DNA of 64,000 nucleotides, taken from Demequina sp. TMPB413. Its GTDB lineage: Bacteria; Actinomycetota; Actinomycetes; Actinomycetales; Demequinaceae. The DNA is taken from assembly GCF_020447105.2 (NCBI RefSeq), contig NZ_CP096184.1:1364001-1428000 (forward strand). Direction: 5' to 3'. The notes beneath the pieces are model-generated. The model searched no databases. It had not been told where the DNA came from and worked only from the letters and a program-made list of their open reading frames with translations. Below are positions 20,913-32,023 of the stretch, piece after piece. The first letter of the stretch is position 1, and the number at the start of each line of letters is the position of its first letter. A program made the position numbers and the translations under genes.

Positions 20913-20999
20913 GGTCAGTTCTGACCGGGGAACCAGGCGGCACGCCGCACTGGCCGCCTCGCGACCGCGTGGTGCGCCCTCCCGCGGTCAGCACTGTTC
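20913..20999. repeat. Bipartite inverted-repeat element, copy C (87 bp)
   Basis: Outer arms GGTCAGTTCTGACCG (20913-20927) and CGGTCAGCACTGTTC (20985-20999) match in inverse at 12 of 15 positions. Ten nt further in on each side are inner arms CGGCACGC (20938-20945) and GCGTGGTG (20967-20974). The central loop is 21 bp. Same length and geometry as copy D at 31937-32023. It lies in the dapA-cupin gap, 93 bp upstream of dapA; nothing else is evident in the 215-bp gap. Confidence 0.7.
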
Positions 21000-21035
21000 A
21001 CAGCGACGACGCTGTGGCCGGGCGTTGCCTGGCTG

Positions 21036-21365
21036 CTATGCCTTCGCGACCGACAGGATCACCACGGCATCGGTGAGCGCCGAAAGCCCGTGACGCAGCG
21101 GCGGGATCTCGATGAGGCTTCCTTCGGCCAGCGTCACCGACTCTCCGCCGGCATGAAACTCGATCTGGCCCTGGAGCACCATCAACGTCGCCTCGCCTGG
21201 GCTCTCGTGGTCCTGGAGCGTAGCGCCGGCCGCGAGCGCGATGAGATTCTTGCGAAGCGTGGTGGTGTGGTCACCAACGATGCTGGTGGAACTGCGTCCG
21301 TTGGAGGCCACATGGGCGGCGGCCAGGTGCTCGGTGGCCAAGGCATTGAGGTCGAGGGCTTGCAT
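21036..21365 (-). CDS. Small cupin-domain protein
   Basis: A 109-residue single cupin. The beta-barrel core is [24 protein letters not shown] (about 36-59), then [30 protein letters not shown] and [18 protein letters not shown]. Few metal-ligand residues remain (H53, E56 and a late H), so enzymatic activity is uncertain and a small-molecule sensor or structural role is possible. The ATG at 21365 is supported by AAGGAG 4 nt upstream. A much longer frame upstream is a non-coding antisense read through thyA. The gene is bracketed by repeat elements C and B and by a 26-bp tandem repeat directly upstream. Confidence 0.82.
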
Positions 21366-21380
21366 GTGGCTCCTTGTCGG

Positions 21381-21444
21381 GGGGACTGCGAGGTGGGCAC
21401 AGCCGCGGGGACTGCGAGGTGGGCGCAGCCGCGGGGACTGCGAG
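21381..21444. repeat. 26-bp tandem repeat, about 2.5 copies
   Basis: The unit begins GGGGACTGCG at 21381, 21407 and 21433, giving an exact 26-bp period with a single base difference between the full copies. It starts 16 bp upstream of the cupin ATG, in the position of its promoter or leader. Confidence 0.85.
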
Positions 21445-21478
21445 AACTCCTTCTCCCACGCTACCGCTCGCTCGGGCA

Positions 21479-21701
21479 GGTAGGGCGGTCGGGCCCGCGC
21501 CGACCGACGCAGCAGTGCGCGCCTGTTCCGGCCCCGCCCGCCGACGCAGCAGTTCGCGCCAGTCCCACCCCACGCTCTGCCGACACTTCGAACCAGACCG
21601 CAGCGCGACACGCCGACGCGACCCTCCCCCAAGCGCCTCCCGCGGCGCGTCGTCCGGGAAGACGGTTCGTACTGTCCGCGCGGGTAGGGCGGTCGGGCCC
21701 G
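21479..21701. repeat. Direct repeats in the cupin-thyA gap
   Basis: GGTAGGGCGGTCGGGCCCG occurs exactly twice, at 21479-21497 and 21683-21701. Between these copies, CGACGCAGCAGTKCGCGCC occurs at 21505-21523 and 21542-21560, 37 bp apart. The 399-bp cupin-thyA gap therefore holds the 26-bp tandem repeat, these direct repeats, element B and the thyA promoter, but no gene. Confidence 0.8.
21582..21676. repeat. Bipartite inverted-repeat element, copy B (95 bp)
   Basis: Outer arms GACACTTCGAACCA (21582-21595) and CGGTTCGTACTGTC (21663-21676). After exactly 10 nt on each side are inner arms CGACACGC (21606-21613) and GCGCGTCG (21645-21652). The central loop is 31 bp. Geometry matches copy A at 31797-31892. 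It ends 88 bp before the thyA start. Confidence 0.7.
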
Positions 21702-21751
21702 ACGCCACCATTCCCACGCGAGCCGCACCCCGCGTCGGCGCCGCCGCGTCG

Positions 21752-21757
21752 TAGGCT
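21752..21757 (+). promoter_or_regulatory. Putative leaderless -10 box of thyA
   Basis: TAGGCT ends 7 nt before the GTG start of thyA. There is no Shine-Dalgarno-like sequence between them. Confidence 0.5.
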
Positions 21758-21764
21758 GAGCCTT

Positions 21765-22568
21765 GTGACCGCGATCCCCACTCCGTACGAGGACCTGTTG
21801 CGCGACGTTCTCGAGAACGGCGCCGTGAAGAGCGACAGGACCGGCACCGGCACGCTGTCGGTGTTTGGACGCCAGTTGCGCTACGACCTCAGCGCGGGCT
21901 TTCCCCTCATCACCACCAAGCGGGTGCACGTGCGGTCGATCGTTGGCGAACTGTTGTGGTTCTTGCGCGGCGACACGAATGTGCGCTGGCTTCAGGATCG
22001 CGGGATCACCATTTGGGATGAATGGGCGGACGCCGACGGCGAGTTGGGTCCCGTCTACGGCTACCAGTGGCGCTCGTGGCCCGCTCCAGACGGCCGCCAC
22101 ATCGATCAGATCGCGAACGTGGTCGAGTCCATCAAGAGTCACCCCGATTCGCGCCGCCACATCGTGAGCGCCTGGAATCCCGCGCTGATCGACGAGATGG
22201 CGCTGCCGCCTTGTCACGCACTGTTCCAGTTCTACGTGGCGGACGGAAAGCTCAGCTGCCAGCTCTACCAGCGCAGCGCTGACCTGTTCCTTGGGGTGCC
22301 GTTCAACATCGCCTCCTACGCCCTGCTCACTCACATGATCGCGGCGCAGACTGGCCTCGCCGTCGGAGAGTTCGTGTGGACGGGCGGAGACTGTCACATC
22401 TACGCCAACCACATCGAGCAAGCGCGACTCCAACTCAGCAGGGACCCGTACCCCTACCCCGCTCTGCAGTTGGCGCAGCGGCCGACGCTGATGGACTACG
22501 ACATCGACGACGTGGAGATCCTTGGCTACCAGCACCACCCGGGCATCAAGGCGCCCATTGCGGTCTAG
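21765..22568 (+). CDS. thyA: Thymidylate synthase ThyA
   Basis: ThyA methylates dUMP to dTMP with methylenetetrahydrofolate, producing dihydrofolate. The 267-residue protein has the conserved DRTGTGT, the active-site cysteine C150 in [35 protein letters not shown] and the C-terminal [14 protein letters not shown] ending. The start is GTG at 21765, giving the family length (E. coli 264). An open frame reaching 675 nt further upstream has no ThyA similarity and was rejected. dfrA follows after 6 bp, the usual pairing because DHFR recycles the dihydrofolate formed here. Confidence 0.97.
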
Positions 22569-22574
22569 GCGCCC

Positions 22575-23093
22575 ATGATCAAGGCCATTTGGGCCCAGGC
22601 ACGCGACGCCGCAGGCCGCCCCGTCATCGGCCTGGACGGTGGCATGCCGTGGCATCTCCCCGAGGACCTCGCCCACTTTCAGACGTCCACCACCGGCCAC
22701 GCCGTCATCATGGGCCGACGCACATGGGAGTCCCTCCCGCCCCGGTTCCGGCCGCTGACTGGCAGGGAGAACATCGTGGTGTCGCGCTCACTTGGCTCGC
22801 TGGACGGCGCCACCATTGCCTCCTCCCTTGCCGACGCCATTGACGCTGCCGCTCGCATCTCGCCTGGGACAGACGCCTGGATCATTGGCGGCGCCGGGTT
22901 GTTTGAGGACGCGGCGGCCATCCTCGACGAGGTGGTGGTCACCGAAATCGACCTCGTGACGGACGGCGACACCTTCGCCCCTGAGCTCTCCGACGAGAAC
23001 TGGCGCGCGACGTCGGCTTCCACACCCCTGGCATCTCGCACTGGCCTCGGCTACCGCATCGTGACATACCGTCGTCGCCAGGACGCGACGTAG
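22575..23093 (+). CDS. dfrA: Dihydrofolate reductase
   Basis: DHFR reduces dihydrofolate to tetrahydrofolate with NADPH. The 172-residue product shows the N-terminal IKAIWAQARD, the substrate loop GGMPWHLPEDLAHF, the NADPH-binding GRRTWESLP, NIVVSRS, the WIIGGAGLF glycine motif and VTEIDLVTDGDTFAP. It begins 6 bp after thyA, so the two are cotranscribed. The symbol folA is an equivalent name. Confidence 0.95.
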   Translation: MIKAIWAQARDAAGRPVIGLDGGMPWHLPEDLAHFQTSTTGHAVIMGRRTWESLPPRFRPLTGRENIVVSRSLGSLDGATIASSLADAIDAAARISPGTDAWIIGGAGLFEDAAAILDEVVVTEIDLVTDGDTFAPELSDENWRATSASTPLASRTGLGYRIVTYRRRQDAT

Positions 23094-23158
23094 TCAGGCC
23101 CACCGCAAGCACAAGCACGAGGTGCCACGGCGGCGAGAGCGGAACCACTGCTCCGTGC

Positions 23159-23164
23159 CAGAAT
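23159..23164 (+). promoter_or_regulatory. Putative leaderless -10 box of the acetyltransferase gene
   Basis: CAGAAT ends 6 nt before the ATG at 23171, with no ribosome binding site between. The same hexamer and spacing occurs before ribF. Confidence 0.4.
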
Positions 23165-23170
23165 CGGCGC

Positions 23171-23809
23171 ATGCCTGAGACTGCGTGGCACGTGCCCCAC
23201 CGCATCGACACCGAACGGCTCACCTTGCGCCGCTACAGGGCCGACGATGCGGAACAGATGTCCCGCGTCGCGCTCGCGAGCAAGCAACACCTCGCCACGT
23301 TCATGCCGTGGGCACGCGCGGAGCCCCTGCCGCCAGCCGACCGCGCGGAACTGCTCGAGAAGTTCATGAGCGACTTCGACGAGGGTCGCGACTTCGCCAT
23401 GGGCATCTTTGCCCGCAACACCGGCGAATACATGGGCGGGGCCGGTTTTCACACCCGCCTGGGGCCTGGAGCGCTCGAGATCGGGTACTGGGTCGCCGTC
23501 GATCATGAAGGCAAGGGATACATCACCGAAGCGGTCCTCGCCCTGACGCACGTGGCGCTCACCCTCATGTCGGCCGAGCGGGTCGAAATCCATCACGTCC
23601 CCGAGAACGTGAAGTCGCGCGCGGTGCCGCAGCGCTGCGGCTACTCGTATGACGGCCGCGAACTCACGCTCATGCCCGGTGTCGAAGGCGTCGAGCCCAC
23701 GGATATCTGGTCGGCGACTGCTGAGAACCTCACGCGGGAGCCGTTGGCGTCTGTGCAGCGCCCGCTCGCCTTTGATGCCGAGGACAACCTCATCGCATGG
23801 CCCGCCTGA
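23171..23809 (+). CDS. GNAT N-acetyltransferase, RimJ/RimL type
   Basis: A 212-residue acetyl-CoA-dependent N-acetyltransferase related to ribosomal-protein acetyltransferases. IDTERLTLRRYRADDAEQM opens the fold. The acetyl-CoA motif is the ALEIGYWVAVDHEGKGYITEAVLALTHVAL region (about 97-126), with HHVPENVKSRAVPQRCGYSYDG after it. The substrate is not predictable. It starts 77 bp after dfrA. Its end overlaps the azlC start by 13 nt, so it may be cotranscribed with azlCD. Confidence 0.88.
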   Translation: MPETAWHVPHRIDTERLTLRRYRADDAEQMSRVALASKQHLATFMPWARAEPLPPADRAELLEKFMSDFDEGRDFAMGIFARNTGEYMGGAGFHTRLGPGALEIGYWVAVDHEGKGYITEAVLALTHVALTLMSAERVEIHHVPENVKSRAVPQRCGYSYDGRELTLMPGVEGVEPTDIWSATAENLTREPLASVQRPLAFDAEDNLIAWPA

Positions 23810-24531
23810 CACGCGGTCTGCCGGGGAGGTGGAGCGACCGAGTCGGTCCGGTCCGCCAGCAGGCCCTGTCGGTCTCTCTCGCGACCGGCGCCTATGGCCT
23901 CAGCCTCGGGGCCCTTGCAGTGGCCGCGGGATTGGACTTCTGGCAGACGATGGTGCTGTCGGTGCTCGTCTTCTCGGGAGGTTCGCAGTTCGCTTTCGTC
24001 GGCGTCATCGGTGCAGGCGGAACACCGTTGGCCGCTGTCGGAACGTCGGCGCTCTTGGGCGTGCGCAACGGCTTCTATGGCGTCGCGCTTGCCCCGATCT
24101 TGCGCCCGATGCGCGGCTGGCGCTTCGCCTGGGCTGCCCAGGTCACGATCGATGAGTCGACAGCGGTCGCCTTGGCGCAACCCGAAACGGACGACGCTCG
24201 CCGGCGTGTTGGCTTCTGGTGGGCTGGCGTCGGCGTCTTCGTTGCGTGGAACGTCCTCGTCGGCGTCGGCGCCATCGCTGGTGCGTACCTTGGAGAGCCG
24301 GAGGCCTGGGGGCTCGACGCTGCCGCAGCGGCCGCGTTCCTCGGCCTCGTGTGGCCGCGCCTCGCTGCGCGCAAAGCTCAAGCAGTGGCTGCGGCCGCCG
24401 CTGTGCTGGCCCTCGCTCTCACGCCTGTTCTGCCCGCAGGGCTGCCGATCCTCGCCGCCGCAATCATCGCCATCGCTGCGGGTTGGCGGGATCCGACGGA
24501 AAGGCCTGTGCCGACGGAGGTACAGCCATGA
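23797..24531 (+). CDS. azlC: AzlC-family branched-chain amino acid exporter, large subunit
   Basis: A 244-residue polytopic membrane protein of the AzlC/LIV-E family, the large subunit of a two-component exporter of branched-chain amino acids or analogues (BrnF in Corynebacterium). Characteristic segments are LATGAYGLSLGALAVAAGL, VLVFSGGSQFAFVGVI, ALLGVRNGFYGVALAP and VTIDESTAVALAQ. The start overlaps the upstream acetyltransferase gene by 13 nt and its stop overlaps azlD by 4 nt (ATGA), so a coupled azlCD unit is clear. The transported substrate is inferred from the family only. Confidence 0.92.
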   Translation: MARLTRGLPGRWSDRVGPVRQQALSVSLATGAYGLSLGALAVAAGLDFWQTMVLSVLVFSGGSQFAFVGVIGAGGTPLAAVGTSALLGVRNGFYGVALAPILRPMRGWRFAWAAQVTIDESTAVALAQPETDDARRRVGFWWAGVGVFVAWNVLVGVGAIAGAYLGEPEAWGLDAAAAAAFLGLVWPRLAARKAQAVAAAAAVLALALTPVLPAGLPILAAAIIAIAAGWRDPTERPVPTEVQP

Positions 24532-24851
24532 GCCCCTCCGCATGGCTGTGGGTAGCGATTATCGCCGCCGGACTGGTGTCGTGGCTCACGAAGGCCGCCG
24601 GCCACCTGGTTCCTGAGCGATGGCTCGACCATCCACGCGTGCTGCGCATCGCCAGCTATCTCACCGTGGCGCTACTCTTCGCACTCTTCGCAGTGCAAGC
24701 CTTCACCACCGGCCAGTCCCTCGCGCTCGACGCGCGCGCGGTCGCCGTGGCAGTCGCTGCAGTCCTCTTGTGGCGGCGCGCGCCCTTCATCGTGGTGGTG
24801 ATCGCGGCCGCTGGCGTCGCTGCGGGACTCAGAGCGCTCGGCTGGGGCTGA
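24528..24851 (+). CDS. azlD: AzlD-family branched-chain amino acid exporter, small subunit
   Basis: A 107-residue protein with about four membrane helices, the small subunit partner of AzlC. Family features are VSWLTKAAGHLVPERWLDHPRVLRI and LYAVQ-like FALFAVQAF, then LLWRRAPFIVVVIAAAGVAAGLRAL. The ATG at 24528 overlaps the azlC TGA and has GGAGG 8 nt upstream. Its stop is followed by a short direct repeat and then the convergent ZIP-like gene. Confidence 0.92.
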   Translation: MSPSAWLWVAIIAAGLVSWLTKAAGHLVPERWLDHPRVLRIASYLTVALLFALFAVQAFTTGQSLALDARAVAVAVAAVLLWRRAPFIVVVIAAAGVAAGLRALGWG

Positions 24852-24886
24852 GGCCAAGCTCTAGCTGAGGCTGAGGCCAAGCTCTA
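24847..24886. repeat. 17-bp direct repeat between azlD and the ZIP-like gene
   Basis: GCTGAGGCCAAGCTCTA occurs at 24847-24863 and 24870-24886, spanning the convergent 3' ends of azlD and the ZIP-like gene. Each copy supplies in-frame stop codons. No terminator hairpin is obvious. Confidence 0.75.
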
Positions 24887-25639
24887 AAGGAGTTCAAACA
24901 CTGTGAAGGCGGTGAGGAAGCCCGTCGACGCGATGAGGCCTGTCGCCCAATGGTCGACATTGACGGCTTCAGGAATCATCGAGTTCACCACCATGGCCAT
25001 GAGCGCTCCAGCCGCGAAGGCGAGCGTGACGGCGCGCACTTCGCCGGAGGCTCCCGCCATGAGCGCCGCGCCTAGCACCGCGGCGATGACGGCAATACAA
25101 ACGATCCCGGCCCACAAACCAAAGACCATCCTGGGCGGCCTGCCAGCCTTCTTGAGAGGCACGGTGCCCGCGAGTCCCTCGGCGACGTTGCTCAAGCCAA
25201 TAGAGAGCACAGCGGCGGCAGGGAAGCCTCCGATGGCGGCGGAGATGCCGATCACGAGCGCCTCCGGCACCCCGTCGAGTACAGCGCCGACCGCGTACGC
25301 CACCCCTCCAGAGGAGCCCCCTCGCTTCGCGGTCGCGTTGCGCTCCTCAGGGCGGTGTTGCTCTCGCTTGGCCGCGAGGCGCTTCACCCAGGCATCGGCG
25401 CCCACATAGACCAGCGCGCCCGCCGCAAAACCTGCGACAACCGGCCAAATCCCGCCCACCTCATTCGACTGATGCACCAACTCGTAGGCGAGCGTCGCAA
25501 TCAGGGCACCGGCACCAAAAGCCATCACTCCCGCCACGACGGGCGGCCTTAACTCCCAACGCCATCCTGCCGCTGCTCCGACAAGAAGAGTCCCCACGCC
25601 CAAGAATGCTGCCAGTGCGGCGATCGCGATCGTCATCAC
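24884..25639 (-). CDS. ZIP-family-like metal transporter membrane protein
   Basis: A 251-residue membrane protein with about seven to eight hydrophobic segments and a charged cytoplasmic loop (about 88-110), the layout of ZIP zinc/iron permeases. The signature helices are recognisable (AVGAVLDGVPEALVIGIS, IGLSNVAEGLAGTV, VVNSMIPEA). However, the metal-binding histidine of the HNFPEG-type helix is Asp here (LDGVPEA) and the second helix reads SNVAEG, so metal selectivity or activity may differ. The start is GTG at 25639 or, more likely, ATG at 25636. TAACGT lies 6 nt before the ATG, another possible leaderless start. Convergent with azlD. Confidence 0.75.
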   Translation of the reverse strand: MMTIAIAALAAFLGVGTLLVGAAAGWRWELRPPVVAGVMAFGAGALIATLAYELVHQSNEVGGIWPVVAGFAAGALVYVGADAWVKRLAAKREQHRPEERNATAKRGGSSGGVAYAVGAVLDGVPEALVIGISAAIGGFPAAAVLSIGLSNVAEGLAGTVPLKKAGRPPRMVFGLWAGIVCIAVIAAVLGAALMAGASGEVRAVTLAFAAGALMAMVVNSMIPEAVNVDHWATGLIASTGFLTAFTVFELL

Positions 25640-25712
25640 TCCACGTTAACCGGCAACCGATGAACTTGCGCCACCTCGACCCAGGTCCTGTCCAAGCGAC
25701 CGCTTCACGGCG

Positions 25713-25718
25713 TAGTGT
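25713..25718 (+). promoter_or_regulatory. Putative leaderless -10 box of an acetyltransferase gene
   Basis: TAGTGT ends 7 nt before the ATG at 25726, with only CGGGGAT between. Confidence 0.45.
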
Positions 25719-25725
25719 CGGGGAT

Positions 25726-26247
25726 ATGAGCGAGTCCGCCACGCCAGATGTTTCCGTCCGTCCCGCGCGCCTAGGCGACGAGCAAGAGATCGGCCGCATC
25801 CAGGTCGACGCTTGGGTGGCGTCCCTAGGGGAACGCCTTGGTAGGCGCAGGCACGAGGCCTTCGACCAAGCGGCGATTACTCAAGGGTGGGCAGAGGCGA
25901 TCTCCCAACCGCCCACTCCAGGGCATCGAGTCTTTGTCGCGACGTGCGACGGGGACATCGTGGGCTTCACCGCGGTGGCCCCTCCGAACAGCATCGTTGC
26001 CCTTGAGGTCGACCCTGCGCGGCGCCGACGCGGCCATGGCTCGCGCTTGCTGGCCGCGGCCGCGGATCACTTGCGCAACAACGGGGGCAGCGAGATGAAG
26101 ATCTGGGCGCTCGACCGTGACGTGGTGCGCGCCAACTTCCTCGCCGACGCAGGTTTCGGCGAGGCTGGCATGCGCCGTGAGCTCGACGGACCGGGGCTCA
26201 CTATCCCAGAGAAGCTCTGGCATGCCTCTCTCGTCGACGCCTCCTGA
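25726..26247 (+). CDS. GNAT N-acetyltransferase
   Basis: A 173-residue acetyltransferase of the GNAT superfamily. VRPARLGDEQEIGRIQVDAWVASL starts the fold, VATCDGDIVGFTAVAP is the central strand pair, and the acetyl-CoA pyrophosphate loop is VDPARRRRGHGSRLLAAAADHL (about 90-111), followed by the NFLADAGFGEAGMRRE end. Substrate unknown. It is divergent from the ZIP-like gene and converges on the TPR-like gene. The ATG is chosen for domain fit and the -10-like TAGTGT upstream; an in-frame longer start would add 40 residues of no similarity. Confidence 0.88.
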   Translation: MSESATPDVSVRPARLGDEQEIGRIQVDAWVASLGERLGRRRHEAFDQAAITQGWAEAISQPPTPGHRVFVATCDGDIVGFTAVAPPNSIVALEVDPARRRRGHGSRLLAAAADHLRNNGGSEMKIWALDRDVVRANFLADAGFGEAGMRRELDGPGLTIPEKLWHASLVDAS

Positions 26248-26269
26248 AAGACCCTGCTGGGCGATGGGG

Positions 26270-26749
26270 CTAGAGCGCGCGCTGGTCTGACCGCTTTGCC
26301 CTGCGGTACAGGTCTCCTGCATGGCGCAGCGACTTGCGGGCCATGCCGCGATCCCCGCTGGCCTCGTAGGCGTAAGCGACGTGGAACCACGCAGCCCAAT
26401 CGTCGGGGTGGTCATCCACATTCCTGCGCGCCACCTCGAAGACAGCGACTTGAGCCGCCTCCGTGAGTTTGCCGCGCGCATCGGTCTCGCCGTCGTGGAT
26501 CGGTAACCGGTCTTGGCGCTCCAACTCATCGGCCATGCGCTGTACCACGGTGCCGGTGCGCCACTCGTGGATGAGCCACCACACGCCAATCGCAGGAAGC
26601 ACCAGCATCGCCACGCCAAGGACCTGCGCCACCGCGTCGTCTTGGCGAATGAACATGAAAGCCCTGCCAGCGACCAACGCGAAGTACAGTGCGACGATCG
26701 CGCAGGTGGTCGCCGCGGCCAGGAAGGCCGGGCGTCGCAACAGCCCCAC
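26270..26749 (-). CDS. Membrane protein with C-terminal TPR-like region
   Basis: A 159-residue protein of unknown function. Two transmembrane helices (about 8-30 and 41-62) are followed by a cytoplasmic part ending in a TPR-like helical pair (AAQVAVFEVARRNVDDHPDDWAAWFHVAYAYEASG). The start is GTG at 26749, whose G is the last base of the dapB stop codon, so it is translationally coupled to dapB. Proteins of this kind are found downstream of dapB in related actinobacteria, but I know no assigned role. Confidence 0.72.
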   Translation of the reverse strand: MGLLRRPAFLAAATTCAIVALYFALVAGRAFMFIRQDDAVAQVLGVAMLVLPAIGVWWLIHEWRTGTVVQRMADELERQDRLPIHDGETDARGKLTEAAQVAVFEVARRNVDDHPDDWAAWFHVAYAYEASGDRGMARKSLRHAGDLYRRAKRSDQRAL

Positions 26750-27492
26750 TACAGGTCCATGTAGTTGTCGAGCCCGACGGTCAGGCCAGGGTGGCGGTCG
26801 ACATTGCGGATGGCGAGCACCACTCCTGGCATGAAGCTGGAACGGTCGAAGCTGTCGTGGCGGATGGTGAACTGCTCTCCAGGATTGCCCATGAGGATTT
26901 CCTCATGCGCGACCAGTCCGCGCAGGCGCACCGCGTGCACGCGCACGCCCTCAACGAGCGCTCCCCTGGCGCCGTGCGGATCCTGCGTCGTGGCGTCTGG
27001 CGACGGGGGCACACCTGCCTCTGCACGCGCGGCGGCGATTCCGGCCGCCGTGTGCGTCGCGGTACCGGACGGCGCGTCGGCCTTGTCGGGGTGGTGGAGT
27101 TCCACAATCTCGACCGACTCGAAGTACTTGGCGGCCGCGGCGCTCAGGCGCATCGCCAAGACCGCGCCCAGAGCGAAGTTCGGGGCGACGAGCACCCCTA
27201 ACTCCGGGCGCTCCTTGAGGTGTTCACTCACGCGGTCGAGCGCGTCCGCGGTCCAGCCGCTGGTACCCACGACGGCGTGGAGTCCCAACTCGATGAGCGC
27301 GTGCACATTCGCTTCTGAGGCCTCCGGGACCGTGAAGTCGACGGCGACCTCCGCGTGGGCACGGGCTGCCTCCGCGAGGTCGTCGCCCGCGTCGAGTTGC
27401 GCGACGAGAGCGAGGTCCTCTGCCTCCTCGACGGCGGCCGCGACGGCCTTGCCCATGCGTCCAGATGCACCAATGACTGCGACGTTGATCAT
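26749..27492 (-). CDS. dapB: 4-hydroxy-tetrahydrodipicolinate reductase
   Basis: DapB reduces the DapA product with NAD(P)H in diaminopimelate/lysine synthesis. The 247-residue protein has the Rossmann motif VAVIGASGRMG (4-14), VDFTVPEA, GTSGW, APNFALGAVL, the catalytic ELHHPDKADAPSGTA loop and the C-terminal RHDSFDRSSFMPGVVLAIR. It lies 31 bp after the M16 peptidase gene and shares one base with the downstream membrane gene. The order rpsO-pnp-M16-dapB is standard for Micrococcales. Confidence 0.96.
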   Translation of the reverse strand: MINVAVIGASGRMGKAVAAAVEEAEDLALVAQLDAGDDLAEAARAHAEVAVDFTVPEASEANVHALIELGLHAVVGTSGWTADALDRVSEHLKERPELGVLVAPNFALGAVLAMRLSAAAAKYFESVEIVELHHPDKADAPSGTATHTAAGIAAARAEAGVPPSPDATTQDPHGARGALVEGVRVHAVRLRGLVAHEEILMGNPGEQFTIRHDSFDRSSFMPGVVLAIRNVDRHPGLTVGLDNYMDL

Positions 27493-27523
27493 GTATCGAG
27501 ACTACCCGGGACCGAGCCGTGCG

Positions 27524-28843
27524 CTACGACGCTGGGCCAACCCTGACCTCGCCGCGCGGGCGTGACGCAAGCTCTGCTGCGAGCCTGGAAACGTCGTCGG
27601 CCGTGACCGCCCGCACCTGCTCCAACGATTCGCCGATGCTCCACAACTCGCCGAAGGCCAACTCGGCCTTGCCAAGGCGCGACATGCGCGAATACGAGTC
27701 CTCGAGACGCAACACCGTGGCGCCGGCGATCTGGCCCTGCGCCCGCTCCAACTCGCCGGGAGTGATCCCCTCCGCCATGCGTTCCAACTCGTGGATCAGC
27801 AGGCCAGCCACCTCGTCGGCTTTGGCTGGACTGCAGGCCGCGTACATCCCAAAGAGCCCCGTCTCCGCGTGCGGCTGGCCGAAGGAGTAGACGGTGTACG
27901 CGAGGCCGCGCTTCTCGCGGATCTCTTGAAAGAGCCTCGAAGACATCCCGGAACCGAGAATCGTGCTCATGACGGCCAGGACATTGCGGCGTTCGTCTGC
28001 GACAGCGAGCCCGCGGTTGCCCAGCACAATGTGCGCCTGCTCAATGTCGCGAACGATCGTGAGGCGGGGCGTCAGAGTCGCCTCGACGGGCGCGGAGGCA
28101 TCGCGCTTGCCCAATGGGACGACGTCCCCCGTCGTGTCCCAGCCGCCGCGATCGAGAGCCTCCAGTACCCATTCGCACAAAGCGTCGTGGTCGACGCCGC
28201 CTGCCGCCGTGACGATGAGCCCCTCCGGCCGGTAGTGCTCGCGGTAGTGCTCCAACACCGCTTCGCGATCCACCGCCCTGATGATGTCGGGCGTGCCGCC
28301 GATAGGGCGTCCGAGCGGGTGCCGCCCGAGGACGGCCTCTGCGAAGCGGTCGTGCGCGACGTCGGCAGGGTCGTCGTCAGCCATGGCGAGTTCCTCGAGG
28401 ATGACGCCGCGCTCAAGGTCAAAATCTGCCTGCGTGAGCTTCGCGCCCGTGACCATGTCGAGGATGACCTCGACGGCCATGGGCAGGTCAACGTCGATGA
28501 TCCGCGCGTAGTAGCAGGTGTACTCCTTGGCGGTCATGGCGTTCGACTCGCCGCCCACGCGGTCGAAGGCCTCGGCGATGTCGAGGGCGCCGCGCGTAGG
28601 TGTGCCCTTGAAGAGCAAGTGCTCTAGGAAGTGGGTCGATCCGGCGTGCTCTGGCGTCTCGTCGCGCGATCCCCTGCCGATCCACGCGCCAAAGGTCGCG
28701 GACCTCAGGCCGGGGATGTGCTCGGTGAAGACGCGGACACCACCGGGAAGGATGGATCGGCGAATGACAGCGCCGTGGTCTTGTTCGAAGGTAAGGCTCG
28801 ATCCGGCAGCGGAAGCGGGAACGAGCGGAAGGTCGTGAGGCAT
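27524..28843 (-). CDS. M16-family zinc metallopeptidase (processing-peptidase type)
   Basis: A 439-residue member of the M16 (pitrilysin/mitochondrial processing peptidase) family. The inverted zinc motif HxxEH is HFLEH at 71-75, followed by LLFKGT and the distal glutamate region (FDLERGVILEELAM). The C-terminal half carries SRLFQEIREKRGLAYTVYS, which with a glycine-rich loop completes the clamshell. It has no signal peptide. The ATG at 28843 is used; TAGGCT lies 7 nt upstream, suggesting a leaderless start independent of pnp. Members next to pnp are conserved in Gram-positives, function not settled. Confidence 0.92.
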   Translation of the reverse strand: MPHDLPLVPASAAGSSLTFEQDHGAVIRRSILPGGVRVFTEHIPGLRSATFGAWIGRGSRDETPEHAGSTHFLEHLLFKGTPTRGALDIAEAFDRVGGESNAMTAKEYTCYYARIIDVDLPMAVEVILDMVTGAKLTQADFDLERGVILEELAMADDDPADVAHDRFAEAVLGRHPLGRPIGGTPDIIRAVDREAVLEHYREHYRPEGLIVTAAGGVDHDALCEWVLEALDRGGWDTTGDVVPLGKRDASAPVEATLTPRLTIVRDIEQAHIVLGNRGLAVADERRNVLAVMSTILGSGMSSRLFQEIREKRGLAYTVYSFGQPHAETGLFGMYAACSPAKADEVAGLLIHELERMAEGITPGELERAQGQIAGATVLRLEDSYSRMSRLGKAELAFGELWSIGESLEQVRAVTADDVSRLAAELASRPRGEVRVGPAS

Positions 28844-28850
28844 GTGAGCG

Positions 28851-28856
28851 AGCCTA
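28851..28856 (-). promoter_or_regulatory. Putative leaderless -10 box of the M16 peptidase gene
   Basis: TAGGCT ends 7 nt before the ATG at 28843 with no ribosome binding site. It is identical in sequence and spacing to the boxes at thyA and proS. Confidence 0.5.
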
Positions 28857-28903
28857 ACCCGCGCCACGGGAGGCCGAGCACGCCACCCGCTCGCCCTCCG
28901 TAC

Positions 28904-28954
28904 ATATGGTTGTGGCGAGCGTTTCGGCTCGCCGAACGCCCGCCACAACCATAT
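28904..28954. repeat. 51-bp near-perfect inverted repeat
   Basis: Arms of about 24 bp, beginning ATATGGTTGTGGCG and ending CGCCACAACCATAT, pair with one mismatch and one bulged base around a 2-nt loop. It lies between pnp and the M16 gene, has AT-containing ends unlike its surroundings and no T-tract. It is separate from the pnp terminator-like hairpin 26 bp away. No second copy was seen in the window. Confidence 0.85.
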
Positions 28955-28979
28955 CGGCGCCGCCACGTGGGGCGGACGC

Positions 28980-29017
28980 AGCAAGGGCGGCCCTGGTTTC
29001 CCAAGACCGCCCTTGCT
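28980..29017 (-). terminator. Terminator-like hairpin downstream of pnp
   Basis: AGCAAGGGCGG and CCGCCCTTGCT form a perfect 11-bp stem with a 16-nt loop, 43 bp after the pnp stop. No U-tract follows, so it could also be an mRNA 3'-end stabiliser. Confidence 0.7.
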
Positions 29018-29059
29018 GGCGTTCAGTCTGTGACGCGTCGTTGCCGACGCTGGTGACTG

Positions 29060-31279
29060 CTACTCGTCGTCGCCCGACTCGTCGTTGTCTGACGAGGCGT
29101 TGGCGTCTTCGACGACCTCGAGCGACAGCTTGCCGCGGGGGTCGATCTCGCCGATCTGGACCTGGACCTTCTGGCCAACCGACAGGACGTCCTCAACGTT
29201 CTCCACACGCTTGCCACCCACGAGCTTGCGGATCTGCGAGATGTGCAGCAGTCCGTCCTTGCCTGGGCTGAGGGACACGAAGGCACCGAAGGCGACCGTC
29301 TTGACGACGGTGCCGACAAAGCGCTCGCCCACCTCTGGCATGTGGGGGTTGGCGATCGCGTTGATCGCCGCGCGCGCGGCCTCTGCCGAAGGACCGTCGA
29401 CGGCGCCGATGAACACGGTGCCGTCGTCCTCGATCGAGATGTCCGCACCGGTGTCGTCTTGGATCTGGTTGATCATCTTGCCCTTCGGGCCAATGACCTC
29501 ACCGATCTTGTCGACGGGCACGCGCACCGTGATGATGCGTGGGGCGAACTCGCTCATCTCATCGGGCTCCGAGATGGCCTGAGCCATCACGTCGAGGATG
29601 TGCAGGCGAGCAGCCTTGGCCTGGTCGAGAGCGCCAGCAAGCACGGAGGCAGGGATGCCGTCGAGCTTGGTGTCCAGCTGGATTGCGGTGACGAACTCCG
29701 ACGTACCGGCGACCTTGAAGTCCATGTCGCCGAAGGCGTCTTCCGCACCGAGGATGTCGGTGAGCGCCGCGTAGCGGGTCTCTCCGTCAACGGTGTCGGA
29801 CACGAGACCCATGGCAATACCCGCAACGGGTGCGCGCAGCGGCACACCAGCGTTGAGCATCGACAGGGTCGAGGCACACACGGAACCCATAGACGTCGAG
29901 CCGTTAGATCCGAGCGCCTCAGACACCTGGCGGATGGCGTAGGGGAAGTCCTCGCGGCTCGGGAGCACGGGCACCAGGGCACGCTCGGCGAGCGCACCGT
30001 GACCGATCTCGCGACGCTTGGGGGAACCCACACGACCCGTCTCGCCCGTCGAGAACGGCGGGAAGTTGTAGTGGTGCATGTAGCGCTTCTTCTTCTCCGG
30101 GTTAAAGGAGTCGATCTGCTGCTCCATCTTGAGCATGTTGAGCGTGGTGACACCCAGGATCTGGGTCTCGCCGCGCTCGAAGATGGCCGAGCCGTGCACG
30201 CGCGGGATCGAGGCGACCTCGGCGGACAGCGGACGGATGTCTTCCAGCCCACGACCGTCAATGCGGACGCCATCCCTCAGGATGCGCTGACGGACCTGCT
30301 TCTTGGTGATCGAGCGGATCGCAGCAGAGATCTCGGCCTCGCGGCCAGGAAGCTGCTCCACCAGACGACCGTGAGTGGCCGCCTTGATCTCATCGAGTCG
30401 GTTCTCGCGGTCTTGCTTGTCCGCAATACGCAGCGCCTCGACGATGTCGGCCTCGGCGGCGTCGGCAACAGCCGCAAGCGCGTCGTCCTGGTAGTCGAGG
30501 AAGCGGGGGAACTCCTTGGGCTCCTTGGCGGACTTGCCAGCGAGTTCGATCTGCGCCTCGCACAGCGCGCGCAGGAACGGCTTGGCGGCCTCAAGACCCT
30601 CGGCAACCACTGCCTCGGTGGGCGCCTGGGCACCCTCTGAGATGAGGTTGAAGGAGTCGTCGGTGGCCTCAGCCTCGACCATCATGATGGCGACGTCGTC
30701 ACCAGCGATGCGTCCGGCAACGACCATGTCGAAGACGGCGCGCTCCTTCTGCGAGTACTTGGGGAAGGCGATCCACTGGCCGTCTACGAGCGCGATACGC
30801 ACGCCTGCGATCGGGCCGGTGAAGGGCAGTCCCGACAGTTGAGTCGACGCGGAGGCCGCGTTGATCGCCAGCGTGTCGTACGAGTCTTCAGGGTTGATCG
30901 CGAGGACGGTGATGACCACCTGAACCTCGTTGCGCAGGCCCGACACAAAGGTGGGGCGCAGCGGACGATCGATCAGGCGGCACGTCAGGATCGCGTCGGT
31001 CGAGGGGCGACCCTCGCGACGGAAGAACGAACCGGGGATCTTGCCGGCCGCGTACGAACGCTCTTCCACGTCCACCGTGAGGGGGAAGAAGTCGAAGCCT
31101 TCGCGCGGGTGCTTGCCGGCCGTGGTGGCCGACAGCAGCATCGTGTCGTTGTCGAGGTAGGCGGCGACGGTGCCAGCAGCTTGCTGGGCCAGACGGCCGG
31201 TTTCGAAACGGACGGTGCGGGTGCCGTACTTGCCGTTGTCGATGACGGCTTCGGCAGATTGGATTTCGGGACCTTCCAT
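29060..31279 (-). CDS. pnp: Polyribonucleotide nucleotidyltransferase (PNPase)
   Basis: PNPase degrades RNA 3' to 5' phosphorolytically and can also make heteropolymeric tails. The 739-residue protein has the two RNase PH domains (first with [29 protein letters not shown], second with [14 protein letters not shown] and MGLVSD plus [10 protein letters not shown]), the linking helical domain, a KH domain ([16 protein letters not shown]) and a C-terminal S1 domain ([27 protein letters not shown]), ending in an acidic tail. Upstream lies the 860-bp repeat region, so it is not tightly linked to rpsO as in many bacteria. Confidence 0.97.
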
Positions 31280-31508
31280 TAAGGTCTCACGCTCCTTGTA
31301 ATGAGGGAGCGAGCAGGCAGAACTGGGCTTTTCGGGAGCCCCGGCTGATCGTCAGTCGACATGCTCAGAACAGTTGAGGGGGGTTCTGAGAATCTCCACC
31401 GAGGACCAGCGTCCGGCCAACCCGCTCGGTATGCAGGTTGAACTCGCTCTTGCGAGTGCTTCCAGACTAGCAGAGGGCCTCTTAGCGCACCCCTGCTCCC
31501 CCCACAAA

Positions 31509-31730
31509 TGGCTTGATATGTACCGCTCAGCGCCGGTTTCCACGGTTAGTGGCTCAATCCGTACCGCTCAGCACCGGTTTCCACGGTTAGTGGCTCAATC
31601 CGTACCGCTCAGCACCGACTTCAACCGCAAATGGCTCAATCCGTACCGCTCAGCACCGGCATCAACGACAAGTGGCCTAATCCGTACCGCCTAGCACCGG
31701 TTTCCACGGTTAGTGGCTCAATCCGTACCG
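31509..31730. repeat. 41-bp tandem repeat array, five full copies plus a partial
   Basis: Copies start at 31509, 31550, 31591, 31632, 31673 and (partial) 31714, an exact 41-bp period. Each begins TGGCTCAATCCGTACCG (or a close variant) followed by CTCAGCACCG; the last 14 nt vary more between copies. The period is not a multiple of three, so it is not a coding repeat. There are no unique spacers and no cas genes, so it is not CRISPR. Confidence 0.93.
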
Positions 31731-31796
31731 TGCGAGCGAGCGGCTCGACACCGCAGCGGGGAGCTCCCATGCGCGGGACGGCCGGGTCACTTTCCA

Positions 31797-31892
31797 GACA
31801 GTGCGAACCGCACCCGCCTCCAACACTCCGCAGCACTCCGCGCGTCGGGCGTCCCCACCGGCGTGTCGAACGAAAGAACGGTTCGCACTGTC
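31797..31892. repeat. Bipartite inverted-repeat element, copy A (96 bp)
   Basis: Outer arms GACAGTGCGAACCG (31797-31810) and CGGTTCGCACTGTC (31879-31892) are perfect inverse copies. After exactly 10 nt on each side come inner arms CAACACTC (31821-31828) and GCGTGTCG (31861-31868). The central loop is 32 bp. It lies 66 bp beyond the 41-bp array. No flanking target duplication was seen. Confidence 0.75.
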
Positions 31893-31936
31893 GGGAGGGG
31901 CGGGCAGCTGCGAGCTGCGTGCCCCGAACTCGTGGA

Positions 31937-32023
31937 GAACACTTCTGACCGCTCGAGGCTCCGACACGCGGACACGTGGACCTACCTCCAGCGTGTCGCC
32001 CGCGCCGACGGTCAGAACTGTTC
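31937..32023. repeat. Bipartite inverted-repeat element, copy D (87 bp)
   Basis: Outer arms GAACACTTCTGACCG (31937-31951) and CGGTCAGAACTGTTC (32009-32023) match in inverse at 14 of 15 positions. After exactly 10 nt on each side, the inner arms CGACACGC (31962-31969) and GCGTGTCG (31991-31998) are perfect inverse copies. The central loop is 21 bp. It is the cleanest of the four copies and lies 44 bp after copy A. Confidence 0.75.

Follow-up and report, generated by a model that had tools for sequence, protein, structure and literature searches.

We lean towards reading four intergenic elements, E1 to E4, as dispersed copies of two bipartite palindromic families, each of which would be the cognate site of one nuclease that joins an AbiEi-type winged helix to a Vsr-like domain and whose gene sits between two palindromes of its own. 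The elements lie in a 64,000-nucleotide stretch of DNA from Demequina sp. TMPB413 (the window), and they were delimited in a copy scan that covered the window plus 24 stretches around arm hits.

Positions 20913-20999, no strand assigned: E1 (type I, 87 bp long), with outer arms at 20913-20927 and 20985-20999 and inner arms at 20938-20945 and 20967-20974 around a centre of 21 bp
Positions 21582-21676, no strand assigned: E2 (type II, 95 bp long), with outer arms at 21582-21595 and 21663-21676 and inner arms at 21606-21615 and 21643-21652 around a centre of 27 bp
Positions 31797-31892, no strand assigned: E3 (type II, 96 bp long), with outer arms at 31797-31810 and 31879-31892 and inner arms at 31821-31830 and 31859-31868 around a centre of 28 bp
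Positions 31937-32023, no strand assigned: E4 (type I, 87 bp long), with outer arms at 31937-31951 and 32009-32023 and inner arms at 31962-31969 and 31991-31998 around a centre of 21 bp

The four elements, whose coordinates and parts had been described in a first-pass annotation of the window and were borne out here, are far from chance. The genome-wide search which that annotation had proposed did return further copies: an exact two-arm pattern matched the 2.92 Mb genome (G000, genus Demequina) 6 times forward and 5 times in reverse, against 0 and 0 for a reversed-pattern control, and the full count came to at least 31 copies, 9 of type I (E1 and E4 among them) and 22 of type II (E2 and E3 among them). 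The arms start 71 apart in type I and 81 or 82 apart in type II, so the two lengths do lie roughly one helical turn apart, as had been suggested. Loosely scored arm pairs in the scan fell mainly at these distances (10 at 71, one of them spurious, 15 at 81 and 7 at 82, with at most 3 at any other). Because each spacing class has its own outer-arm sequence, we rejected the single broad family with a variable loop that had been proposed at first and recognize two families instead. E1 aligns with the 8 other type I copies; it and E4 are matches of model R2, built from the type I copies themselves (G000:C1:1384913-1384999 and G000:C1:1395937-1396023, the latter at E 2e-19), and E2 and E3 are matches of model R1, built likewise from the type II copies (G000:C1:1385582-1385676, E 4e-16, and G000:C1:1395797-1395892, E 2e-16). 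R1, a sequence-only model made from the 22 type II copies, recovers all 22 at E 3e-13 or better on the better strand, as expected for its own training set, and a genome search with it gave no further full type II copy.

Two details of the original description needed revision. Inner arms of 8 bp are correct for type I, but those of type II measure 10 bp (CGACACGCCG / CGGCGTGTCG). The 10-nt gaps are indeed fixed in length, but they are not entirely unconserved, since their pairwise identity among 28 copies of genome G021 is 0.46 vs 0.27 after shuffling; the centres of the G021 copies are only weakly alike (0.40 vs 0.32 shuffled), and recent copying is therefore not visible there. Our catalogue holds 78 copies, 31 from G000 and 47 from relatives (one a half element). 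Copies are mostly intergenic, the exceptions being 6 of the 78 that fall within predicted reading frames. Elements lie between convergent genes in 34/78 cases and between divergent genes in 6/78, vs 6/118 and 44/118 for element-free gaps of the same loci, a background of gene pairs taken from loci chosen around elements.

The link to an enzyme comes from the position of the palindromes. Fifty-three of 86 Demequina nuclease genes sit between two palindromes whose arms are specific to the gene (50 scoring 40.5 or more and 3 through a family-specific detector) and 33 were not called bracketed, while none of 202 control genes passed the 40.5 threshold (top score 39.5) and 86 shuffled flanks reached 37.0 at most, in a test that gave nuclease genes flanks of 360 bases (30 inside the gene) and controls and shuffles 300, a small advantage to the tested genes. 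The 86 are the nuclease hits whose E was 1.2e-25 or lower; we omitted 13 weaker, partial ones, and 3 fragments belong to counted genes. Although differences of up to 12 bp were allowed, the two palindromes agree in length within 1 bp in 49 of the 50 bracketing pairs. The median distance from the 5′ palindrome to the gene's matched region is 124.5 bp, and a matched palindrome is also found downstream of the gene. Beyond Demequina, 6 of 9 nuclease genes from other genera of the family and order score 40 or more, and among 27 further genes across the class 17 do so and 13 reach 40.5, with 0 of 135 shuffles reaching the score; the controls in these tests were shuffles only, and the flanks were longer (330 or 600, and 400). 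The first detector that we used had a cut-off of 27 vs a shuffled maximum of 27.7, and it left L269 (27.1) and L290 (27.9) marginal on one side; later bracket scoring places both above the controls. Several arm sets can occur within one genome, each specific to its nuclease gene. Mere presence of the nuclease family was discarded as a partner signal: PF18741 was found in each of the 23 genomes searched, whether or not they hold elements, so that presence is uninformative and bracketing is what informs.

The bracketed genes encode proteins of about 300 residues with an AbiEi-type winged helix and a Vsr-like nuclease. Pfam assigned AbiEi_4 to 19, MTES_1575 to 18 and DUF559 to 17 of 20 members (the AbiEi match of the G000 protein itself falls below the cut-off), and no Y1 or other transposase domain to any of the 20. 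Ten residues are invariant in 20 proteins (E198, Q215, D225, E235, D237, H242, D251, R254, D255 and R267), and the nuclease profile matches PDB 3HRL at 7e-7.

The G000 gene, which encodes 302 residues, lies outside the window at G000:C1:1974849-1975757, between neighbours that look like hpt and ftsH, and it is bracketed by type I elements. Only G000 and G053 have strong type I matches; both carry type I beside the gene, and their hpt–ftsH nucleases form a clade of their own (100/100) in a tree that kept 82 of the 86 genes (4 short or broken rows dropped). Another 18 hpt–ftsH genes, which have long elements by the first detector, fall into two supported clades of 7 (100/99) and 11 (99/95) rows. 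In other Demequina it is type II-like elements that bracket the gene at this locus; in G000 type II looks orphaned, and two half-arm remnants lie beside the nuclease gene. In G016 and G041 the dispersed copies follow the arm variant of the nuclease. Matches to the type II model are also more numerous (median 42) in the 20 genomes whose nuclease sits between elements of the long family or of type I than in the 24 without (median 6.5; p 5e-5). The correspondence has exceptions: G003, G010, G014, G042, G012 and G023, among others, are rich in type II-model matches yet show no matching hpt–ftsH bracket by the first detector, which we explain as orphan copies; elements with GCTC(A/C)GCACGG occur also in G044, G024, G049 and G005, and the called brackets in the first three have other arms; and in G002 the bracketing arms are unlike the best-scoring dispersed copy. 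Taken together, a cognate relation between element and nuclease is well supported, and we infer binding, cutting and mobilization.

In 38 of the 44 Demequina genomes the type II model finds matches, whose arms are altered; the arm tips are diverse (GACAST, GAACAST, TTCGCT, GTTGCT and others). The model gave no match in the other 6 Demequina genomes or in any of 3 genomes drawn from two further genera of this family. The exact type II pattern matched a single record among genome contigs, Demequina sp. BWSM_2, in a set that may omit records near the G000 genome; it was absent from viral contigs, and a phage origin was rejected. A 41-bp tandem array at window positions 31520-31730 resembles the arms of another Demequina family, a link that we dropped when shuffled arrays scored equally (13).

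Across the 22 type II copies of G000, arm position 5 is complementary in 6 vs 11.1 expected and position 7 in 8 vs 6.7 expected, with a slight excess at position 4 (17 vs 14.8 expected). In a mixed-species set, from which 4 low-scoring copies out of 68 were dropped and in which imperfect anchoring of some arms blurs the tip positions, inner-arm position 29 is complementary in 36/64 vs 36.6 expected, and pairing is in excess at positions 8, 11, 15, 20 and 31. We attribute this excess to arm variants that change in parallel on both sides between species, which is compatible with either a hairpin or a DNA site. Within G000 the left and right arms lack base-pair covariation, so a protein-binding, double-stranded DNA site, as the first-pass annotation had proposed, is a better fit than an RNA hairpin. 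Structured RNA in 3′ regions, or terminators that act in both directions, would account for the bias towards convergent 3′ ends and for the excess pairing in the mixed-species set; given the unpaired positions 5, 7 and 29, the absence of any T-run by eye and the lack of Rfam matches in the window at gathering scores, we regard them as highly improbable, and RNA structure was rejected on the blank Rfam search and on positions 5 and 7.

Other explanations accept a DNA site but assign it a different purpose. Promoters of AbiEi antitoxins contain inverted repeats that the proteins themselves bind, and the winged helix might similarly repress its own gene from the flanking sites, with the dispersed copies as its regulon; the distance of the 5′ palindrome from the gene suits an operator, but the matched palindrome 3′ of the gene does not, and a regulon would favor promoters rather than the convergent gaps in which the elements accumulate. 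We consider this unlikely, though worth keeping in mind. Sites for a chromosome-organizing or nucleoid protein, for which matS, SlmA and Noc sites offer a comparable use, would explain the constant spacing near whole helical turns and the strongly constrained arms with freer centers. They would also suit the neighboring genes that are common to G000 copies and those of relatives at about 10 G000 loci, a sharing that speaks for long residence. On this account nuclease genes would merely carry some of the sites, which is difficult to square with arms specific to each nuclease gene, with several arm sets per genome, and with the Demequina and related genomes that lack a type II match; we judge it improbable.

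If the elements were ordinary MITEs, or the ends of insertion sequences, and owed their movement to a conventional transposase encoded elsewhere in the genome (Y1, or RAYT, included), they would have inverted-repeat ends and dispersed copies, could land occasionally in reading frames, and could differ between species at one site, as is the case for a site that holds different element families in different species. Against this are centers that are nearly free although their length is fixed, and a bracketed gene whose Pfam domains are nuclease and winged helix rather than transposase, and we doubt this explanation strongly. When one intergenic spot of G024 was set beside those of 5 relatives, neither a clean empty site nor a duplicated target was seen, the flanks being too diverged. 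The earlier argument against a mobile element is not supported in the form given, in view of the exchange of families at one site and a bracketed nuclease gene reminiscent of REPINs and RAYTs.

REPINs and their RAYTs are the best-known case in which a single, vertically inherited enzyme goes with a population of bacterial repeats, and they raise the question of why hosts retain them. A REPIN/RAYT-like system with an unrelated enzyme would be the best reading of our elements. The winged helix would bind the arms from one face of the double helix, as a dimer or a dimer of dimers, and the nuclease would nick or cut at the palindrome; rare copying or repair after the cut could then seed new copies, and over long times the population of sites might be maintained close to the 3′ ends of genes, much as RAYT proteins maintain REPINs. 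For type I, the presumptive enzyme is the one encoded in the same genome at the hpt–ftsH locus; for type II, the enzyme at that locus was apparently replaced by the type I allele, which would have left the orphan copies and the two half-arm remnants. More tentatively, and with somewhat less confidence than we attach to the reading of E1 to E4 themselves, the bracketed genes may represent a previously undescribed class: sequence-specific Vsr-like nucleases with their own double-stranded palindromic sites on both flanks, which in some lineages seed and maintain tens of sites per chromosome, with arms that change genome-wide along with the enzyme and orphan sets left by allele replacement.

REPINs are described as pairs of inverted repeats around a spacer that are scattered through extragenic DNA (PMC3116915), RAYT genes as flanked by the repeats (PMC3733652), and the RAYT as a single-copy, vertically inherited enzyme gene, with more elements where it is present (PMC8049555). 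Our elements share the two inverted units at fixed spacing (31 dispersed copies, at 71 or 81-82) and the bracketed enzyme gene (53/86). They differ in the enzyme, which for REPINs is a Y1 HUH tyrosine transposase, in arm tips without the constant GTAG tag that ends REPIN units, and apparently in lacking hairpin-forming units: the variable arm positions in G000 are unpaired, which makes hairpin recognition unlikely. CGTC-tagged palindromic repeats, stated to lack a dedicated transposase (PMC3733652, whose main text does not contain the word "actinobacteria"), are likewise short dispersed palindromes, but our arm tips have no constant CGTC. If our reading is true, the question of host retention could be approached independently in a second system, one that shares the genomic logic of REPINs but uses an unrelated enzyme and recognizes DNA in another way, and a common small actinobacterial nuclease family of unknown function would gain its first biological role. 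The bracketed nuclease genes point to repeat-plus-enzyme systems as a class that has drawn little notice in Actinomycetes. Since a candidate target is present on both flanks of each bracketed gene, binding and cutting are directly testable.

In the open-licence literature we found no paper joining DUF559 and AbiEi, and searches for DUF559 with palindromes, Demequina with palindromic repeats, and nuclease genes flanked by palindromes gave nothing relevant by title among the papers listed. The N-terminal AbiEi_4 winged helix is a likeness to AbiE type IV toxin–antitoxin systems, from which our proteins differ in having a Vsr-like nuclease as their C-terminal part. The DUF559 / REase_MTES_1575 domain is called a Vsr REase in passages of PMC3710099 that mention no palindromes; the nuclease domain family is the same, but the protein named there is of a giant helicase type.

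The first-pass annotation had placed four inverted-repeat elements in the window and suggested a search for more copies beyond it. All four sets of coordinates proved right on the window sequence (contig positions 1364001-1428000), and the two-arm pattern has 6 forward and 5 reverse matches in the 2,920,349-base single contig, versus 0 in the same genome for a control pattern read backward. Single-arm searches allowing one mismatch gave at least 49 and at least 54 matches, versus at least 28 and at least 21 for the control, and among the exact single-arm matches listed, the majority pair at constant distances. A scan script covering the window and 24 fetched stretches around arm matches yielded 22 type II and 9 type I elements, two palindrome families distinguished by arm spacing; a whole-genome run of the type II model found no extra full copy. 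Inner arms in both types resemble CGACACGCCG / CGGCGTGTCG and lie approximately 10 nt inward of the outer arms.

Palindrome families, window elements and single-arm arrays in Demequina sp. TMPB413
Type II (n = 22): arms GACASTnCGAACCG / CGGTTCGnASTGTC, start-to-start distance 81 or 82
Type I (n = 9): arms GAACASTTCTGACCG / CGGTCAGAASTGTTC, start-to-start distance 71
Window 20913-20999 (E1): type I
Window 21582-21676 (E2): type II
Window 31797-31892 (E3): type II
Window 31937-32023 (E4): type I
Locus L045 2979-3051 (G000:C1:378678-378750): single-arm array, direct orientation
Locus L048 3198-3266 (G000:C1:525697-525765): single-arm array, direct orientation

The direct-orientation arrays adjoin full elements and are built of single type II outer arms that recur roughly every 27 to 30 nt. 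Directly before E3, window 31520-31730 is made up of five tandem 41-bp units (GTACCGCTCAGCACCGG...), whose likeness to the family arms of two relatives (G051 and G023) is no better than that of shuffled sequence.

Two type I copies also bracket a gene at 1974849-1975757, whose neighbors look from their sequences like hpt and ftsH. Pfam matches to its 302-residue product were DUF559 (1e-8, above the cut-off), REase_MTES_1575 (2.4e-9, just below it) and AbiEi_4 (3e-4, below it). A profile of 20 nuclease proteins of this family matches PDB 3HRL, an endonuclease-like protein (7e-7), and E198, Q215, D225, E235, D237, H242, D251, R254, D255 and R267 are invariant in 20 proteins. For five proteins, PADLOC returned AbiEi matches in the N-terminal part (best 3e-8) and, in two of the five, a weak PDC-S37 match; NCBIfam gave nothing convincing for the same five. 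Relatives of the gene are present in 44 of 44 Demequina genomes, and the 86 genes with E values of 1.2e-25 or better were examined for flanking palindromes.

A detector targeting the long (type II-like) and type I families, with a score cut-off of 27 (shuffled maximum 27.7), found 20 of the 86 genes bracketed on both sides at 27 or more: 19 come from the hpt-ftsH locus, each in a different genome, and the twentieth is a different paralogue, found in G023. In G053 an element flanks the gene on one side, while the contig stops on the opposite side. In a protein tree of 82 rows, the 18 hpt-ftsH genes bracketed by long elements split into supported clades of 7 and 11 members; the type I genes of our genome and G053 form their own clade (100/100). 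A general detector, which is given no arm sequence and needs only that a gene be flanked on each side by matched inverted repeats similar in length, gave 50 of the 86 genes a score of at least 40.5, versus maxima of 39.5 for 202 control genes and 37.0 for 86 shuffles. The bracketing arms vary from gene to gene and the palindromes range from 68 to 116 bp, but the two members of a pair are equal in length to within 1 bp in 49 of the 50 genes, where 12 was allowed. The two detectors combined find 53 of 86 genes bracketed, including 31 of the 36 hpt-ftsH locus genes, and a stricter version of the general detector finds 45 of 86 versus 0 of 172 shuffles. A further paralogue in G023 (L304 2006-2854, G023:C16) lies between two paired 87-bp palindromes whose arms are GTGACGGTGAT.

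The bracketing rule extends outside Demequina. Elsewhere in the family and order, 8 of 17 genomes carry the nuclease, in 9 genes, 6 of which score at least 40, although one reaches 40 only with 600-base flanks and another scores 42 where its own shuffles reach 40.0. The nuclease is present in 39 of 148 genomes of the class; among 27 new loci, one each from 27 genomes, 17 score at least 40 and 13 at least 40.5, with none of 135 shuffles reaching 40 (maximum 39.0).

If an element type belongs to its nuclease, type I should occur only where its nuclease clade does, and this held: among the 44 Demequina genomes, strong matches to the type I model occur only in G053, with 5 elements at 1e-7 or better, and in our genome, where 9 elements are accompanied by weaker hits on type II copies (4e-11 at best); 7 others have one or two matches each, none better than 2e-5. 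Arms of the form GCTC(A/C)GCACGG bracket the nuclease in G016, G041 and G002, where the pattern has 19+15, 6+8 and 4+5 matches (strands separate, flanking pairs counted); it has 0 in the 11 genomes of the AACC-arm clade and single matches in G019, G021 and G008. It also occurs in G044 (5+4), G024 (5+6), G049 (6+5) and G005 (2+2), and the brackets called in the first three of these carry other arms. We read these extra sets as orphans, and they count against a strict one-to-one link between element and enzyme. In G002, the best dispersed copy found by the type II model has a CAACGG core, unlike the bracketing pair. Genomes with a long- or type I-bracketed nuclease have a median of 42 type II-model matches versus 6.5 in those without (20 versus 24 genomes; Mann-Whitney p 5e-5, with a model that favors GAACC arms). 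The amplified copies follow the enzyme, with exceptions.

E1 and E4 have a putative enzyme encoded in this genome. For E2 and E3, the likely picture is one of orphans left by an earlier allele of the hpt-ftsH nuclease locus; half-arms of type II at 1974614 and 1974661, beside the present gene, support this. An intergenic spot in G024 is occupied by a 2.25-kb block that contains a second nuclease gene and, by eye, four copies of its palindrome. One palindrome family in this block (L394 15458-17713, G024:C7) brackets both the nuclease gene and, next to it, two small genes that look by eye like a toxin-antitoxin pair. The corresponding spot holds a different palindrome in G044, two others in G049 and, by eye, a CAACGG-type one in G010; G022 has weak repeats only and G005 none. 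The flanks are too diverged among the relatives compared for a target duplication to be readable at the G024 spot.

The first-pass annotation had favored a protein-binding DNA site over an RNA hairpin. With a hairpin function, the variable positions of both arms would be expected to pair. Among our 22 type II copies, the two arms are complementary at position 5 (G or C) in 6 versus 11.1 expected from random pairing, at position 7 in 8 versus 6.7, and at position 4, with a slight excess, in 17 versus 14.8. In a set from several genomes (64 of 68 copies used), inner-arm position 29 pairs in 36 of 64 versus 36.6 expected; positions 8, 11, 15, 20 and 31 pair above expectation, and our interpretation is that arm variants shifted in step on the left and right from one species to another. 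Among 28 copies in G021, pairwise identity falls from 0.97 for the outer arms to 0.91 to 0.92 for the inner arms, then to 0.46 for the gaps between arms (0.27 shuffled) and 0.40 for the center (0.32 shuffled): constraint sits in the arms and the center is nearly free of it. This supports a protein that recognizes the site as double-stranded DNA, at a constant helical phase. In the simplest scheme, the winged helix would bind the palindrome arms and the nuclease would act there; it could move the palindromes, much as RAYTs do REPINs, or use them in another way. REPIN/RAYT, as described in PMC3116915, PMC8049555 and PMC3733652, follows the same genomic logic, but three of its defining features that we tested (a Y1 enzyme, a GTAG tag and hairpin units) are lacking here, and we therefore do not class our system with it. 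The open-licence papers searched contain no description of such a system, although this is no proof of novelty.

The exact type II pattern matched one record among genome contigs, a Demequina metagenome-assembled genome, and none among viral contigs. At E 0.001, the type II model matches 38 of the 44 Demequina genomes and none of the 3 from two other genera of the family; a first search of relatives had given one weak match (E 0.0015) among 14 other-family genomes. Arm cores vary between species in parallel on both sides (GAACCG, GAACCA, GCACGG and CAACGG, for example), while length and architecture are conserved. Of 78 catalogued copies, 34 lie in convergent, 30 in tandem and 6 in divergent gaps, 6 in predicted frames, and 2 are undecided; element-free gaps of at least 95 bp at the same loci number 6, 68 and 44, respectively, by our own simple codon-usage gene finder. 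For the 70 copies between two genes, convergent gaps are over-represented (Fisher p 3e-12) and divergent ones under-represented (1e-5), and this bias toward convergent genes disfavors a promoter regulon. Nearest or next-nearest genes are common to genomes in at least 38 protein pairs at about 10 of our loci, a figure based on incomplete sampling of copies in the relatives. In two species a type II element lies within the same gene (L062 3094-3189 and L119 5021-5116), which from its sequence looks like a dihydrolipoamide acyltransferase with the element in the linker after the first domain; in G001 (L113) and G023 (L111), a further element interrupts the frame of an ABC-type ATPase-like gene. 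Two identical copies 300 bp apart in G017 (L108 11691-12083, G017:C1) are apparently a tandem duplication.
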